From Candidatus Formimonas warabiya (GTDB lineage: Bacteria; Bacillota; Dehalobacteriia; Dehalobacteriales; Dehalobacteriaceae), in assembly GCF_002777255.1 (NCBI RefSeq), contig NZ_CP017634.1, forward strand, positions 5,220,903 through 5,284,902: DNA of 64,000 bases, in the 5' to 3' direction. Below are positions 3,529-15,268 of this stretch, one piece after another (within the stretch, counting starts at the first letter, position 1; each line of letters starts with the position of its first letter). The notes beneath the pieces were generated by a model. That model worked only from the letters and a program-made list of their open reading frames with translations. It did no database searches and had not been told where the DNA came from. Position numbers and translations under genes: made by a program.

Positions 3529-3689
3529 GGCTAGCCGATAAAATCGAGAAAGAGAAAAATAGTTAATTTCTGGATAAAGGAAAAATGTTGCCCAAGGTAG
3601 AATCATTAATTAAAAATAATCACCTTCACCCAAGATAGGTTCTTATTTGCCGGTCTGGAAAAAATCTTAAAAAAGATTAGGTGATAAGA

Positions 3690-5126
3690 GTGGAAAAATC
3701 GAAAAAGAAGGCCCCTGCGGCGGAGAAGGCTCCGGAAAGCCGGAACGAATGGGAATTAACTCAGTTTAGGAAAATATTAAACCATTCCTATGATGAGATT
3801 TTTGTCATCAACAACAAAGGGGAAGTTGTGTACGTCAATGAAGCCTGTGAGCGAAATTACGGGCTGAAACCGGAAGAAATTGTGGGGAAAACGGTTTACC
3901 AGCTGATCAACGAGGGATATTATTATCCCTTGATTGCTCCTCTGGTGTTGCAGGAGAAAAAAAGGGCCACCTTTGAACAGGAAACCATTGTGGGGAAAAA
4001 ACTGGTGGTCACCGCTACCCCCATCCTCAACGACCGGGACGAAGTGGACCTGGTGGTGATGAACAGCCGGGATATCACGGAACTGGAAAACCTGAAATAT
4101 AATTTGGAAGAAACCAAAAAACAAATGGAAGAATACAAAAAGGAAGTCGAAGAATTAAAAAAGAGAGAGAACCGCTTTGAAAATTTTATCGTGCGCAGCA
4201 AGGCCATGGGCGATTGTATGGAATTGGCCCAGCGGGTGGCCCTGGCGGATTCCACCATTATCATCCTGGGGGAAACCGGCACGGGGAAAAGCGTTTTAGC
4301 CAAATATATTCATGGCATGAGCCCCCGGAAACAGGGGCCTTTTCAGACGATTAATTGTGCCGCCATTCCGGAGCAGTTGCTGGAGTCGGAATTATTCGGT
4401 TACCAGTCCGGTGCTTTTACCGGGGCCAATAGCAAGGGAAAAGCGGGACTGTTGGAGCTTGCCAATGGAGGGACCCTTTTTTTGGATGAAATTGCGGAGA
4501 TCCCCATTAAACTTCAGGCGAAGATTTTGCAGGTGATCCAGGAAAACAAATTTATTCCGGTAGGCGGGACTAAATACAAAACGGTCAATATCCGGATCAT
4601 TGCGGCCACTAACCGGGATCTGGAACAAATGGTGAAAGAGGGAACCTTCCGGGAGGATCTTTATTACAGACTGAACGTGATTGAACTTCCTATTGCCCCG
4701 CTGCGGGAACGGACGGAAGATATTGTTCCCCTGGCCCAATTTTTTCTCAATAAGTATGATAAGCGTTATCATACCTCTCATTCCTTTTCTCAAGATACTC
4801 TGGACATTTTGATCTGCCATCCCTGGCTGGGAAATGTCCGGGAACTGGAGCATGTCATTGAGCGGTTGGTTTTAACCGTCCAGGAATCAAAAATTCTTCC
4901 CAAACACCTACCCAAGAAATTTCAACAAGTGGAAAAGATGACAGGACCTGTGTCCTTACAGAACATTGCCCCCCTTGACCTGATCGAGAAAGAACTGATT
5001 ATCAAGGCTTATAAACAGCTGGGCAGTTCTTATAAAGTCGCCAAAGTATTAAATATCAGTCAAAGTAAAGCCAATAGAAAAATACGCCAATATTTATCCG
5101 GTTTAAACGCAGCCCCGAAATCATAA
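3690..5126 (+). CDS. PAS-domain sigma-54-dependent transcriptional activator
   Basis: About 480 residues. The order is an N-terminal PAS domain (residues about 20-125, YVNEACERNYG), a coiled linker rich in Glu/Lys (about 130-155), an AAA+ sigma-54 interaction domain (Walker A GETGTGKS; GAFTGA loop, which contacts sigma-54; Walker B LFLDEI), and a C-terminal Fis-type helix-turn-helix (SSYKVAKVLNISQSKANRKI). There is no receiver domain, so it should sense a ligand or redox state through PAS. GTG 3690 follows AGGTGAT; GTG 3681 in the same frame is the alternative. Three -24/-12 promoters lie downstream (5368, 9163, 11075), so it is the likely local activator. Confidence 0.93.
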   Translation: MEKSKKKAPAAEKAPESRNEWELTQFRKILNHSYDEIFVINNKGEVVYVNEACERNYGLKPEEIVGKTVYQLINEGYYYPLIAPLVLQEKKRATFEQETIVGKKLVVTATPILNDRDEVDLVVMNSRDITELENLKYNLEETKKQMEEYKKEVEELKKRENRFENFIVRSKAMGDCMELAQRVALADSTIIILGETGTGKSVLAKYIHGMSPRKQGPFQTINCAAIPEQLLESELFGYQSGAFTGANSKGKAGLLELANGGTLFLDEIAEIPIKLQAKILQVIQENKFIPVGGTKYKTVNIRIIAATNRDLEQMVKEGTFREDLYYRLNVIELPIAPLRERTEDIVPLAQFFLNKYDKRYHTSHSFSQDTLDILICHPWLGNVRELEHVIERLVLTVQESKILPKHLPKKFQQVEKMTGPVSLQNIAPLDLIEKELIIKAYKQLGSSYKVAKVLNISQSKANRKIRQYLSGLNAAPKS

Positions 5127-5367: not shown

Positions 5368-5383
5368 TGGTATGGAACTTGCT
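5368..5383 (+). promoter_or_regulatory. Sigma-54 (-24/-12) promoter of the phosphodiesterase-trxB-trxA unit
   Basis: TGGTATGGAACTTGCT fits the sigma-54 consensus with GG at 5369-5370 and GC at 5381-5382, exactly 10 bases apart. Transcription should start near 5394, about 50 bases before the ATG at 5443, which has AGGAGGT at 5429-5435. Confidence 0.82.
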
Positions 5384-9162: not shown

Positions 9163-9178
9163 AGGCATCGTTTTTGCT
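9163..9178 (+). promoter_or_regulatory. Sigma-54 promoter of the BCCT transporter gene
   Basis: AGGCATCGTTTTTGCT has GG at 9164-9165 and GC at 9176-9177 with the required 10 bases between. A start near 9189 would give a leader of about 160 bases before ATG 9349. The -24 element is slightly off consensus (AGGCAT instead of TGGCAC). Confidence 0.68.
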
Positions 9179-9348: not shown

Positions 9349-10968
9349 ATGGATAATGGAAAGCCACAACCTAAATACGCGAAAATTAATCCAATGGTAT
9401 TTTGGGTATCCATCGGGGTATGTCTGCTGTTTTACGGACCCATGGTGATTTACCAGGAAGGCGCGCAGAATATTATCAATAAAACCTTTGCCTTTGTGAC
9501 CCGTGTCACGGACTGGACCTGGGAGGTTGTTGTTCTGGGCTGTCTGGTTTTCTTAGCCTGGCTGGCCTTTAGCCGGTACGGCAATGTAAAATTGGGCGGA
9601 CCCGACGACAAACCGGAATTCTCTACTTTTACCTGGATTGCCATGATGTTTTGTGGCGGTTCCGGGGCGGGACTTGTTTACTGGGCATTGGTGGAACCGA
9701 TTTGGTATCTGGCCGGGCCGCCCTTTGGCGTGGAGCCTTTTTCTGCCGCATCTGCCCAATGGGCGCTGTCTTACGGGGTCTTCCACTGGGGCTTTAGTGC
9801 ATGGGCTACCTTTGCGGTTCCTGCCCTGGCTTTCGGATATATGTATTATGTGCGCAAAAAGCCTTTTCTTTATCCCAGTTATGCCTGCCGCGGCGTCTTA
9901 GGAAAATGGGTGGACGGTTGGGTAGGAAAATTGATTGATGCTATCGTCATTATTGGTATGGTGGGTGGGATGGCCACCTCCCTGGGATTTGTGATTCCCA
10001 TGATCTCGAAGATCGCGGCGGACTATTTCGGTATTGCTGATGGCATAGGCTTTAAAATGGTTGTTTCTATCATCTTTTTATGTATTTACGGGTGGAGCTG
10101 CTATCAGGGATTAAAGGGCGGGATTGCCAAACTGGCCGATGCCAATATGTATTTATCCTTTCTGATCCTGGCCTTTGTCCTGGTTGTCGGTCCTACTGCT
10201 TTCCTGTTTTCTCTCTTTGCGGACAACATGGGCGTATTGCTGAATAACTTTTTCCGCATGAGCCTATATACCGACCCCATCGCCAAATCCGGCTTCCCCC
10301 AAGACTGGACCACCTTCTACTGGGCCTGGTGGCTGGCTTGGGCTATGTATGTAGGGCTTTTTGTCGCCCGTATTTCCAAGGGCCGCACCATCAAATCCGT
10401 GATTGCCAACTGCGTTTTTTCGGCTACCGGCGGGTGCGCTCTCTTCTTCCTGATTTTCGGCGGTTATCAAGTGGATATGATTATGAATCAAGGGGTAGAC
10501 CTGTTTGCCATTTTGCGAGACCAGGGCGGACCGGCAGTAACCTCCGCATTTTTGCAGTCACTGCCCCTTAACGCCATCGTCATCCCTTTCTTTATCTTTG
10601 TTATGTTCATATCTCAGGCCACCGGTGTGGATGCCGCTTCTTTTACCATGGCAAACATGGCTTGTTATGAAGTGCAGGATGGGGTAGAACCTCCTAAATG
10701 GTCCCGTGTTGTTTGGGCATTGGTACTTTTCTTTGCTACCACGGGTCTGCTGCTGGTGGGCGGTATGGATGCGGTCAAACTATCCTCCGTATTAACGGCG
10801 GTACCGGTGTTGTTCCTGCTGATCATATTGGCTATTTCTTTGGTCAAGTGGCTGCGGGAAGACTTTGGTCATGATGAACCGCTTACTACAAACAAGTATG
10901 ACGCGGTGATCAATGAACAGGGAAAAGCTGCTTATGCGGAAGGAGTTGCCCAGTCCAAAAGCGTGTAA
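9349..10968 (+). CDS. BCCT-family quaternary-amine (betaine/choline/carnitine) transporter
   Basis: 539 residues with about twelve transmembrane helices. It matches the BCCT family: a glycine-rich GGSGAGLVYWALVEPIW segment in helix 3, a tryptophan-rich FHWGFSAWA segment, and the helix-8 region around FYWAWWLAWAMYVGLFVARISKGRT. BCCT carriers import trimethylammonium compounds by ion symport or by exchange. ATG 9349 follows GGAGGGG. The gene lies directly before two MttB-family methyltransferases, so the imported substrate is probably demethylated by them. It has its own sigma-54 promoter and its own terminator. The exact substrate cannot be read from the sequence. Confidence 0.93.
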   Translation: MDNGKPQPKYAKINPMVFWVSIGVCLLFYGPMVIYQEGAQNIINKTFAFVTRVTDWTWEVVVLGCLVFLAWLAFSRYGNVKLGGPDDKPEFSTFTWIAMMFCGGSGAGLVYWALVEPIWYLAGPPFGVEPFSAASAQWALSYGVFHWGFSAWATFAVPALAFGYMYYVRKKPFLYPSYACRGVLGKWVDGWVGKLIDAIVIIGMVGGMATSLGFVIPMISKIAADYFGIADGIGFKMVVSIIFLCIYGWSCYQGLKGGIAKLADANMYLSFLILAFVLVVGPTAFLFSLFADNMGVLLNNFFRMSLYTDPIAKSGFPQDWTTFYWAWWLAWAMYVGLFVARISKGRTIKSVIANCVFSATGGCALFFLIFGGYQVDMIMNQGVDLFAILRDQGGPAVTSAFLQSLPLNAIVIPFFIFVMFISQATGVDAASFTMANMACYEVQDGVEPPKWSRVVWALVLFFATTGLLLVGGMDAVKLSSVLTAVPVLFLLIILAISLVKWLREDFGHDEPLTTNKYDAVINEQGKAAYAEGVAQSKSV

Positions 10969-11074: not shown

Positions 11075-11090
11075 TGGTATGATAATTGCT
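11075..11090 (+). promoter_or_regulatory. Sigma-54 promoter of the mttB unit
   Basis: TGGTATGATAATTGCT places GG at 11076-11077 and GC at 11088-11089, 10 bases apart. Its -24 half (TGGTATG) is identical to that of the promoter at 5368. The predicted start near 11100 leaves a 60-base leader before ATG 11162, which has GGAGGA upstream. Confidence 0.82.
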
Positions 11091-11161: not shown

Positions 11162-12646
11162 ATGCGGACTAATTCTGAGGCAGCTGTGAATTTGACAAGA
11201 GGATTCGGATTAAAAATGTTTTCCGAAGATGAACTCTATGCCATCCATTTAGCAACACTGCAGGTATTGGAAAGAACAGGCATTAAGGTAGAGAGCGAAG
11301 AAGCATTGGAAATTTTTGACGCCGGCGGTGCGAAGGTAAATAAACAAACTCATCTGGTGAAATTCCCGGCTTATATTGTGGAGGACGCTATTCGTTCCGC
11401 CCCCAGCAAGGTGGTGTTGAATGCCAGGAATCCGGTGCATAATGTGATCCTGGAAGGAAAGAGGGTTCATTTTACCAATTTCGGGGAAGGGATTATGGTG
11501 ATTGATCCTTTTACCGGTGCATACAGAAAGTCCACCAAGCAGGATTGCGCCAACGCGGCATTGATCTGTGACGCCCTGGACGAGGTGGATGTCATTTTAA
11601 GAGCGGTAGCGGCCCATGATGTGTTTGTTCCCACCCATGCTCTCCATGAAATGGAAGTGTGCTTTCATAATACGTCCAAACCGGTTTTCAATGGAGGAGT
11701 GAACGCCAGGCTTGCCGAATACTTGTTCCAAATGGGGGCGGCCGTGTGCGGGGGCATGGATAAATTTAAAGAACGTCCCATTCTCTCCCTTAATGTGTGT
11801 CCGACCAGCCCCTTGCAGCTGACCAGTCATTGCACCGACGCCATTATTAAATGTGCGGAATACGGGGTACCGGTGAATATTCTTTCCATGGCCATGGCCG
11901 GAGGCTCTTCGCCCGTTACCTTGGGGGGAACCCTGGTTACCCATAATGCGGAAGTCTTGTCCGGCGTCATTCTGAATCAGTTAACCCGGAAAGGAGCCCC
12001 GGTCATTTACGGCAGTTCCACCACCATGATGGATCTTAAAACCACCACCGCTCCGGTAGGTGCTCCGGAATTGGGCATGATCAATGCCGCCGTGGCTGCT
12101 CTGGCCCAATACTATTTGCTGCCCAGCTGGGTAGCGGGCGGGTAGGTAGACAGCAAGATTGCCGATGCCCAGGCTGCGCACGAAACAACCATGTCTACTC
12201 TTTTAACCGGATTGGCAGGGGCCAACCTGATTTACGGAGTGGGCATGCTGGAATTAGGAATTACCTTTAGCTTTGAGCAGATGGTGATGGATAACGATAT
12301 TATTAAGATGGTGCGCAAGGTACTGAAAGGGATTGAAATCAGCGATGAAACCCTTGCTGTGGATGTGATCGACCAGGTAGGAGCCGGCGGCGACTTCCTC
12401 AGCCAGGAACACACTATTAAATATATGCGCACGGAACAATCCCGCCCCAAGATTCTGGACCGGCAAATGCGCTATGCCTGGAAAGATAAGGGAAGCAAGG
12501 ACCTTACCGCCGTGGCTCATGAAGAAGCGGTTTCCCTGCTGCAGAATCATAAACCGGAGCCGTTGACGGAGAGTGTCCAGGCAGAACTGCAGTCTATTAT
12601 TGCCGAGGCGGAAGCAGAGTTTGCGGCGCAGATGAAAAAAAAGTAG
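11162..12646 (+). CDS. mttB: Trimethylamine methyltransferase MttB, UAG read as pyrrolysine
   Basis: Read through a single in-frame TAG at 12143-12145, the gene encodes 494 residues with pyrrolysine at position 328, close to the usual length and Pyl position of MttB. The residues around the codon are VAGG-Pyl-VDSKIADAQAA. The downstream part continues in the same frame with no indel and retains the family's conserved C-terminal half (GLAGANLIYGVGMLELG). Conventional gene callers would split it at 12145 and restart at the ATG at 12191. MttB moves a methyl group from trimethylamine to the corrinoid of MttC using the Pyl imine ring. No mttC or pyl genes are in the window. It is first in a sigma-54 unit behind a BCCT transporter. 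Confidence 0.93.
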
Positions 12647-14203: not shown

Positions 14204-15268
14204 TTGGCAGAAAGCATCCATCATGACCCGAAGAAAAAAGGCATCGTGCCATATTTGGCTTCTATGAAATTGGGGCTGTGCCTCATCTTTATCCAAGGGG
14301 GATTGATCTCCCTGGGTACCGTGATTCCCCAAGACGCTCCGGCACAGCTTTACCTGATGAATTACGGAGACAGGCTGGGAAAGCTGATTGTACTTACAGG
14401 CTTAGACCATCTGTACCGGTCCTGGTGGTATATTTTCTTTTCCGTATTACTCCTGTTAAACCTGGTGTTTTGTTTGATGCTCCGCGTGAAAAGGCTGAAA
14501 AACCTGCGCGCCTGGGGTTCCTTTTTGATCCATGGCAGCCTTTTGGTCCTTTTCATCGGCTGCCTGATCTCAGGAGCCTGGGGTCACCGGGAGTACGTAG
14601 AACTGGCCGAGGGAGATACCGTCAATCTGGCCACGAAAGGCTTTTCTCCCCATGTGCTTACTTTAAAAGAGTTTAGAATCTCCTATTATGAGAATTATGA
14701 TCCCCAGCAGTATTATTCGGATTTGACTCTTCAGTTGGAAAACCGGCAGGCGATCCAGGGACAGACCAGTGTCAATCACCCCTTTCAGGCGGGCGGATTA
14801 AAAATTTACCAAACCAGCTACGGATGGGTGCTTCAGGGCACTGTCAAGACCGGCCAAAGCAGTACCCCTTTTACCGTACGGGATGGGGACTTTGTGAATC
14901 TGAACGACCGGCAGGATTTAAACATCAGAACCTTTTTTATCCCCGATTATGATGCCCAAACCGGAACCATGTCCTCCAAAACGCCCCTTCCTCAGAATCC
15001 CAGGATGGTATGCGCCATGATTCAGGGAGGGGAAATGACGGACTTTCTGTTGCTCGCCCCCGGTGAAAGCAAGGAGATGGCCGGATGCACCGTGACCTTT
15101 ACTTCCTTTCGCCGTTATTCAGGCTTAGAGATTAAGCAGGATCCAGGGATACCCTATATTTTTGCCGGGTTCGTTTTGGTCGTATTGGGTCTTGTTTTGT
15201 ACTGGTGTGTACCCCATGCCAAGATCAAAAAGGAAGGGAGGGAGCCTGGTGGAGAGCATCTTCAATAG
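14204..15268 (+). CDS. resB: ResB-family cytochrome c biogenesis protein
   Basis: About 354 residues with three N-terminal membrane helices (about 15-35, 65-85, 100-120), a long extracytoplasmic domain and one C-terminal helix (about 325-345), the layout of ResB/Ccs1. Motifs include SMKLGLCLIFIQGGLISLGTVIPQ and GSFLIHGSLLVLFIG. With ResC/CcsA it delivers and attaches heme to apocytochromes c outside the membrane. TTG 14204 has GGAGTGG at good spacing; GTG 14195 is in frame as an alternative. It overlaps the next gene by 20 bases. DsrJ, encoded at 175, is a plausible client. Confidence 0.9.
   Translation: MAESIHHDPKKKGIVPYLASMKLGLCLIFIQGGLISLGTVIPQDAPAQLYLMNYGDRLGKLIVLTGLDHLYRSWWYIFFSVLLLLNLVFCLMLRVKRLKNLRAWGSFLIHGSLLVLFIGCLISGAWGHREYVELAEGDTVNLATKGFSPHVLTLKEFRISYYENYDPQQYYSDLTLQLENRQAIQGQTSVNHPFQAGGLKIYQTSYGWVLQGTVKTGQSSTPFTVRDGDFVNLNDRQDLNIRTFFIPDYDAQTGTMSSKTPLPQNPRMVCAMIQGGEMTDFLLLAPGESKEMAGCTVTFTSFRRYSGLEIKQDPGIPYIFAGFVLVVLGLVLYWCVPHAKIKKEGREPGGEHLQ

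Follow-up and report, generated by a model that had tools for sequence, protein, structure and literature searches.

The gene at 11162-12646 is interrupted by an in-frame TAG codon, and the question raised by this locus is whether this codon marks a broken gene or encodes pyrrolysine (Pyl) in a methyltransferase of the MttB family. The window, i.e. the whole stretch of 64,000 nucleotides that was analysed, corresponds to positions 5,220,903-5,284,902 of the genome of 'Candidatus Formimonas warabiya' strain DCMF, a single contig of 6,441,270 bases. Coordinates of the gene and of its neighbours refer to the window.

Reading frame and pyrrolysine position

11162-12646, + strand: Pyl-MttB (trimethylamine methyltransferase family), 494 residues with UAG taken as pyrrolysine (PF06253, TIGR02369, M. 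barkeri MttB)
12143-12145, + strand: TAG, codon 328, almost certainly specifying pyrrolysine; it corresponds to Pyl334 of the M. barkeri protein (modified-residue column of 7XCL)
12143-12242, + strand: match to Rfam RF02510 (PYLIS_3), 71.3 bits, with no evidence of a functional RNA element
12644-12646, + strand: terminal stop of Pyl-MttB, likewise TAG, with an in-frame TAA 8 codons further

The frame was re-derived and is composed of an ATG, 327 codons, one internal TAG and 166 sense codons, without any change of frame, and a ribosome-binding site, GGAGG, is found before the ATG at about 11151. These are the positions and the 166-residue continuation described in the first-pass annotation, which had also predicted that automated annotation would split the gene; indeed, standard ORF calling yields exactly the two pieces expected, 11162-12145 (327 aa) and 12191-12646 (151 aa). 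Read through, the protein is a complete member of the MttB family (PF06253, 345 bits) and scores 744 bits against the NCBIfam model TIGR02369 (trimeth_pyl), whose equivalog cut-off is 525. It is the sole TAG-interrupted frame found in the window with both halves in one protein family. Other TAG-joined frames of the window, e.g. those at 15266 and 26339, were rejected, no evidence of recoding being found; the continuation after 15266 lies inside another gene, in a different frame. As for the terminal TAG of Pyl-MttB, some read-through is possible and would add a C-terminal extension, WFSTIPGR.

The MttB of Methanosarcina barkeri (PDB 7XCL, 7XCM, 7XCN; PMC9842639) belongs to the same fold family and carries a UAG-encoded Pyl at the same position. 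Indeed, in the alignment with 7XCL, TAG codon 328 falls exactly on the modified residue Pyl334, which agrees with the earlier expectation of a Pyl near residue 334, and identity is 48.0% overall, 47.4% before the TAG and 49.1% after it. The equivalents of Gly110, Met249, Tyr364 and Gly372, which take part in activating Pyl or in contacting the corrinoid (PMC9842639), are all present, Gly110 and Tyr364 being the residues that activate Pyl in M. barkeri MttB (PMC9842639). In contrast to the archaeal enzyme, the protein studied here is bacterial and has Gln for Glu225 and Glu for Thr111, the latter counting against the explanation preferred below. The glycine betaine methyltransferase MtgB (PDB 2QNE, 9YCE) is a member of the same superfamily without pyrrolysine, and Pyl-MttB scores 262 bits against it versus 450 bits against MttB.

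The first-pass annotation had further supposed that the organism possesses PylS, PylT and PylBCD, and the genome search found pylT, pylSc, pylSn, pylB, pylC and pylD. A tRNA-Pyl with anticodon CUA (pylT) is encoded at positions 2333-2404 of locus L025 (genome positions 6,236,000-6,250,000) and is followed by pylSc (373 bits), pylB (502 bits), pylC (464 bits) and pylSn (142 bits), all above their equivalog cut-offs. A pylD gene (250 bits; cut-off 150) is present at 5,056,941-5,057,729 (locus L075). The Pyl set is therefore complete, in two places. The pylD gene is unlinked, 1.2 Mb from the pylT-Sc-B-C-Sn group, and adjoins a cluster containing a Pyl-MttB and a Pyl-MtbB.

Pyl-MttB has an ortholog with 87% identity in a related genus (L078/L144); it retains the TAG and is followed by an ortholog (83%) of the gene that comes after Pyl-MttB in the window. 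Between the two Pyl-MttB genes, the part after the TAG has a dN of 0.10, a dS of 1.58 and a dN/dS of about 0.06; translation and constraint thus extend past the TAG, which has persisted while synonymous sites approached saturation. Furthermore, an in-frame TAG is present in 36 of 37 related loci of named genomes, from Firmicutes to Desulfobacterota, the remaining one ending before the site.

These data bear directly on the possibility of a genuine nonsense mutation, the TAG leaving a pseudogene or a truncated protein of 327 residues. Such an accident would fit the splitting of the gene by ORF calling, the use of TAG as an ordinary stop in other MttB genes of the genome and the apparent breakage of another MttB (at about 475.8-477.1 kb) by a frameshift and a TGA. 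It is nevertheless strongly disfavoured and highly improbable, given the constraint past the TAG, the retention of this codon in the ortholog, its column being common to 13 paralogs, and the pyl genes of the genome; in addition, a truncated form would be devoid of the equivalents of Tyr364 and Gly372. Suppression of the UAG by an ordinary tRNA, with insertion of a standard amino acid, appears more remote still, since the genome encodes a dedicated tRNA-Pyl(CUA) together with its synthetase and the position is that of the catalytic Pyl of a solved homolog. The internal UAG of Pyl-MttB almost certainly encodes pyrrolysine, as first proposed; the pyl genes, the TIGR02369 score and the alignment to Pyl334 all support this assignment. 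In the best explanation, which the sequence evidence makes very probable, the gene product would be a full-length methyltransferase, dependent on a corrinoid and belonging to the MttB clade that contains pyrrolysine.

A PYLIS RNA element located after the UAG could also be thought to direct the insertion of Pyl, as the PYLIS_3 match of the feature list might suggest. This is very unlikely: over 36 Pyl-MttB sequences, folding energies do not differ from those of synonymous-codon controls (mean z 0.07), three of the eight consensus pairs are broken in at least half of them, and a published study saw no common RNA structure in mttB (PMC3639795). The match reflects protein conservation and not RNA structure. 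For the reading as pyrrolysine, by analogy with work on M. barkeri MttB, PylSn and PylSc would charge tRNA-Pyl(CUA), and this tRNA would decode the UAG in competition with release factor 1, an RNA element probably not being needed.

The MttB family of the genome and loss of the Pyl codon

Internal TAG codons are found in 13 of the 80 MttB genes of the genome and all 13 fall in one alignment column, a placement well beyond chance; no second internal-TAG site was found among the 80. In this column, the other members carry Cys, Leu, Gly or other residues, and never Lys. Together with seven Pyl-MtbB and one Pyl-MtmB, the 13 Pyl-MttB bring the Pyl genes counted to 21. There is no avoidance of TAG as a stop, as 15 of the 80 MttB genes, including 3 of the 13 Pyl-MttBs, end in TAG, and backup stops after the TAG are no closer in MttB genes (Mann-Whitney p = 0.85).

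In the tree, the Pyl-MttB clade is supported at 98/98, and Pyl-MttB of the window is sister to its ortholog at 100/100. In four members of this clade (5753705, 5060277, 1655649 and L091), the Pyl position is occupied by a sense codon (Leu, Val, Trp and Ile), and these Pyl-less members retain Met249 and a Tyr or Phe at 364. Their positions in the tree require at least three independent losses of the Pyl codon.

Several other apparent irregularities were considered. A putative MttB with both TGA and TAG (Sec plus Pyl) at 5606115 was rejected, as it vanished once the gene start was properly set, and single in-frame TAA or TAG flags in other MttBs were likewise rejected after correction of the gene starts; these spurious flags arose because the stops sit at the ends of the HMM alignments, outside the gene. 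The mttB at 475787-477071 (L026), in which a frameshift and an in-frame TGA appear to break the gene, is probably a real pseudogene. A pyrrolysine-free MttB (L044, 5855722-5858508) ends in a TAG that is in frame with the next MttB, without any other stop; its read-through would yield a protein of double length, and this arrangement is probably due to chance. In Syntrophaceticus schinkii, a pyrrolysine-free MttB adjoining a Pyl-MttB (L146:7621-9027) carries one additional in-frame TAG, codon 301, ahead of the usual YY motif; this inserted codon reflects either recoding or faulty assembly.

Gene neighbourhood, promoter and candidate substrates

3681-5126, + strand: regulator with PAS and sigma-54-interaction domains (PF00158, 235 bits)
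9349-10968, + strand: BCCT family transporter (betaine/carnitine/choline type), upstream of Pyl-MttB (PF02028, 501 bits; TIGR00842 above cut-off)
11075-11090, + strand: probable sigma-54 (-24/-12) promoter, TGGTATGATAATTGCT, 87 nt before the Pyl-MttB start codon
12764-14170, + strand: MttB2, a pyrrolysine-free MttB paralogue with Ile at the Pyl column, downstream of Pyl-MttB (PF06253, 418 bits)

The best equivalog of the BCCT transporter is a carnitine/butyrobetaine antiporter, although with a sub-threshold score. MttB2 scores about 342 bits against 9yce/2qne versus 165 bits against MttB 7xcl, its closest solved relative thus being the glycine betaine methyltransferase MtgB. A second copy of the pairing is present in the genome at 5.317-5.323 Mb, in the order BCCT, Pyl-MttB, MttB2, BCCT, and the pairing recurs in several further genera within the family or phylum, where the Pyl-MttBs are 74-87% identical and each contain one TAG; in one genome (G377) the pairing involves a different Pyl-MttB. 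PylS is present in every genome with the Pyl-MttB/MttB2 pairing.

With regard to transcription, rpoN is present in the genome and a -24/-12 site also precedes the Pyl-MttB orthologs. Such sites are found upstream of 16 of the 80 MttB genes, versus about 1.8 expected from shuffles. Across the window, sigma-54-like sites show no excess over chance (25 vs 34), so only their placement before MttB genes and orthologs is informative. Further sigma-54-like sites lie at 9163-9178, before the BCCT gene, and at 5368-5383, before the 5443 operon. The regulator at 3681-5126 is a candidate activator of the Pyl-MttB locus, and in L136 and L138 a similar PAS/sigma-54 regulator separates the orthologs of Pyl-MttB and MttB2. 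Sigma-54 would drive transcription within the module.

No homolog of the corrinoid protein (mttC) was found within the window, such genes being present elsewhere in the genome. Contrary to M. barkeri MttB, no corrinoid gene adjoins Pyl-MttB, this neighbour being customary and not strictly defining. For 7 of the other 12 Pyl-MttBs, a Pyl-mtbB is found at a distance of no more than 5.3 kb; for Pyl-MttB of the window, the nearest one is at 169 kb. Pyl-MttB thus belongs to a conserved module composed of a BCCT transporter, Pyl-MttB, an MtgB-like MttB and a sigma-54 promoter, without mttC or mtbB. A second conserved pairing, of a Pyl-MttB with a YSGA-type pyrrolysine-free MttB, was observed at other loci (L031, L038, L141, L145, L146, L152, L154, L176), with mttC in between at several of them, in both cultured and uncultured Firmicutes.

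By analogy with M. barkeri MttB, the pyrroline ring of Pyl328 would bind a tertiary amine and render it quaternary-like, and the methyl group would then be transferred to the Co(I) of a corrinoid protein encoded elsewhere in the genome and on to tetrahydrofolate, the expected methyl acceptor, in place of the coenzyme M of M. barkeri MttB. The substrate could be trimethylamine or another tertiary amine, possibly one made by the partner enzyme MttB2.

Two readings of the substrate, both compatible with UAG as pyrrolysine, can be set side by side. Pyl-MttB may take only trimethylamine, as in M. barkeri, with MttB2 and the BCCT transporter forming a separate quaternary-amine pathway that is merely located next to it. 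The conserved active site and the match to TIGR02369, an equivalog model named for trimethylamine activity, speak for this reading, the chances of which are about even. Trimethylamine is nonetheless not assured as the substrate, because no corrinoid-protein homolog was found in the window and mtbB is distant. Against a trimethylamine-only enzyme, moreover, (i) the Pyl-MttB and MttB2 pair is also found in genera from three or more other families, with a BCCT transporter at most loci, (ii) the gene order of the pair varies, with a sigma-54 regulator in between in some cases, and (iii) neither mtbB nor mttC is adjacent, unlike the Pyl-mtbB proximity of most other Pyl-MttBs. This conserved pairing hints at another substrate. 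In a tentative two-step scheme, suggested by gene order and rather doubtful at present, the BCCT transporter would import a quaternary amine, MttB2 would demethylate it and Pyl-MttB would remove a second methyl group from the tertiary amine so formed. Among the full texts searched, no mention of the tertiary-amine idea for pyrrolysine MttB was found.

Published work on strain DCMF and biological meaning

The genome of strain DCMF was reported to contain 82 mttB genes and pylTSBCD; of its 96 methylamine methyltransferase genes, 23 were found to encode Pyl, and the JGI annotation had split 28 Pyl/Sec genes that were later fused by hand (PMC6778437, 2019). The 21 Pyl genes counted here are close to the 23 of that study, and Pyl-MttB of the window should belong to this published set. 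Subsequently, seven Pyl-MttBs of the strain were detected as proteins in a metaproteome (PMC9768040, 2022); none of their locus tags is at the tag estimated for this gene (~4890). Since Pyl-MttBs were already published for strain DCMF, the pyrrolysine finding is not new. The published Pyl-MttBs come from the same genome, and the portions of text available from these two papers do not discuss the module context. Relative to the literature searched, the module, the repeated loss of the Pyl codon and the attribution of the PYLIS match to protein conservation appear to be new; besides the module and the repeated codon loss, the analysis adds the separate location of pylD.

In summary, column identity, selection downstream of the TAG and the presence of the pyl genes are the decisive evidence that an apparently broken gene is almost certainly a working gene for a protein containing the 22nd amino acid. 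The substrates of bacterial Pyl-MttBs are an open question (PMC9768040), for which the Pyl-MttB/MttB2/BCCT pairing leads to a specific and testable hypothesis. If it were true, Pyl-MttBs would be general tertiary-amine demethylases and not trimethylamine enzymes alone, and, under the two-step scheme, they would become candidates for steps such as the conversion of dimethylglycine to sarcosine, for which the enzyme is unassigned in strain DCMF (PMC9768040). Finally, the independent losses of the Pyl codon within the clade, as read from the tree, would constitute a natural test of what pyrrolysine is required for.
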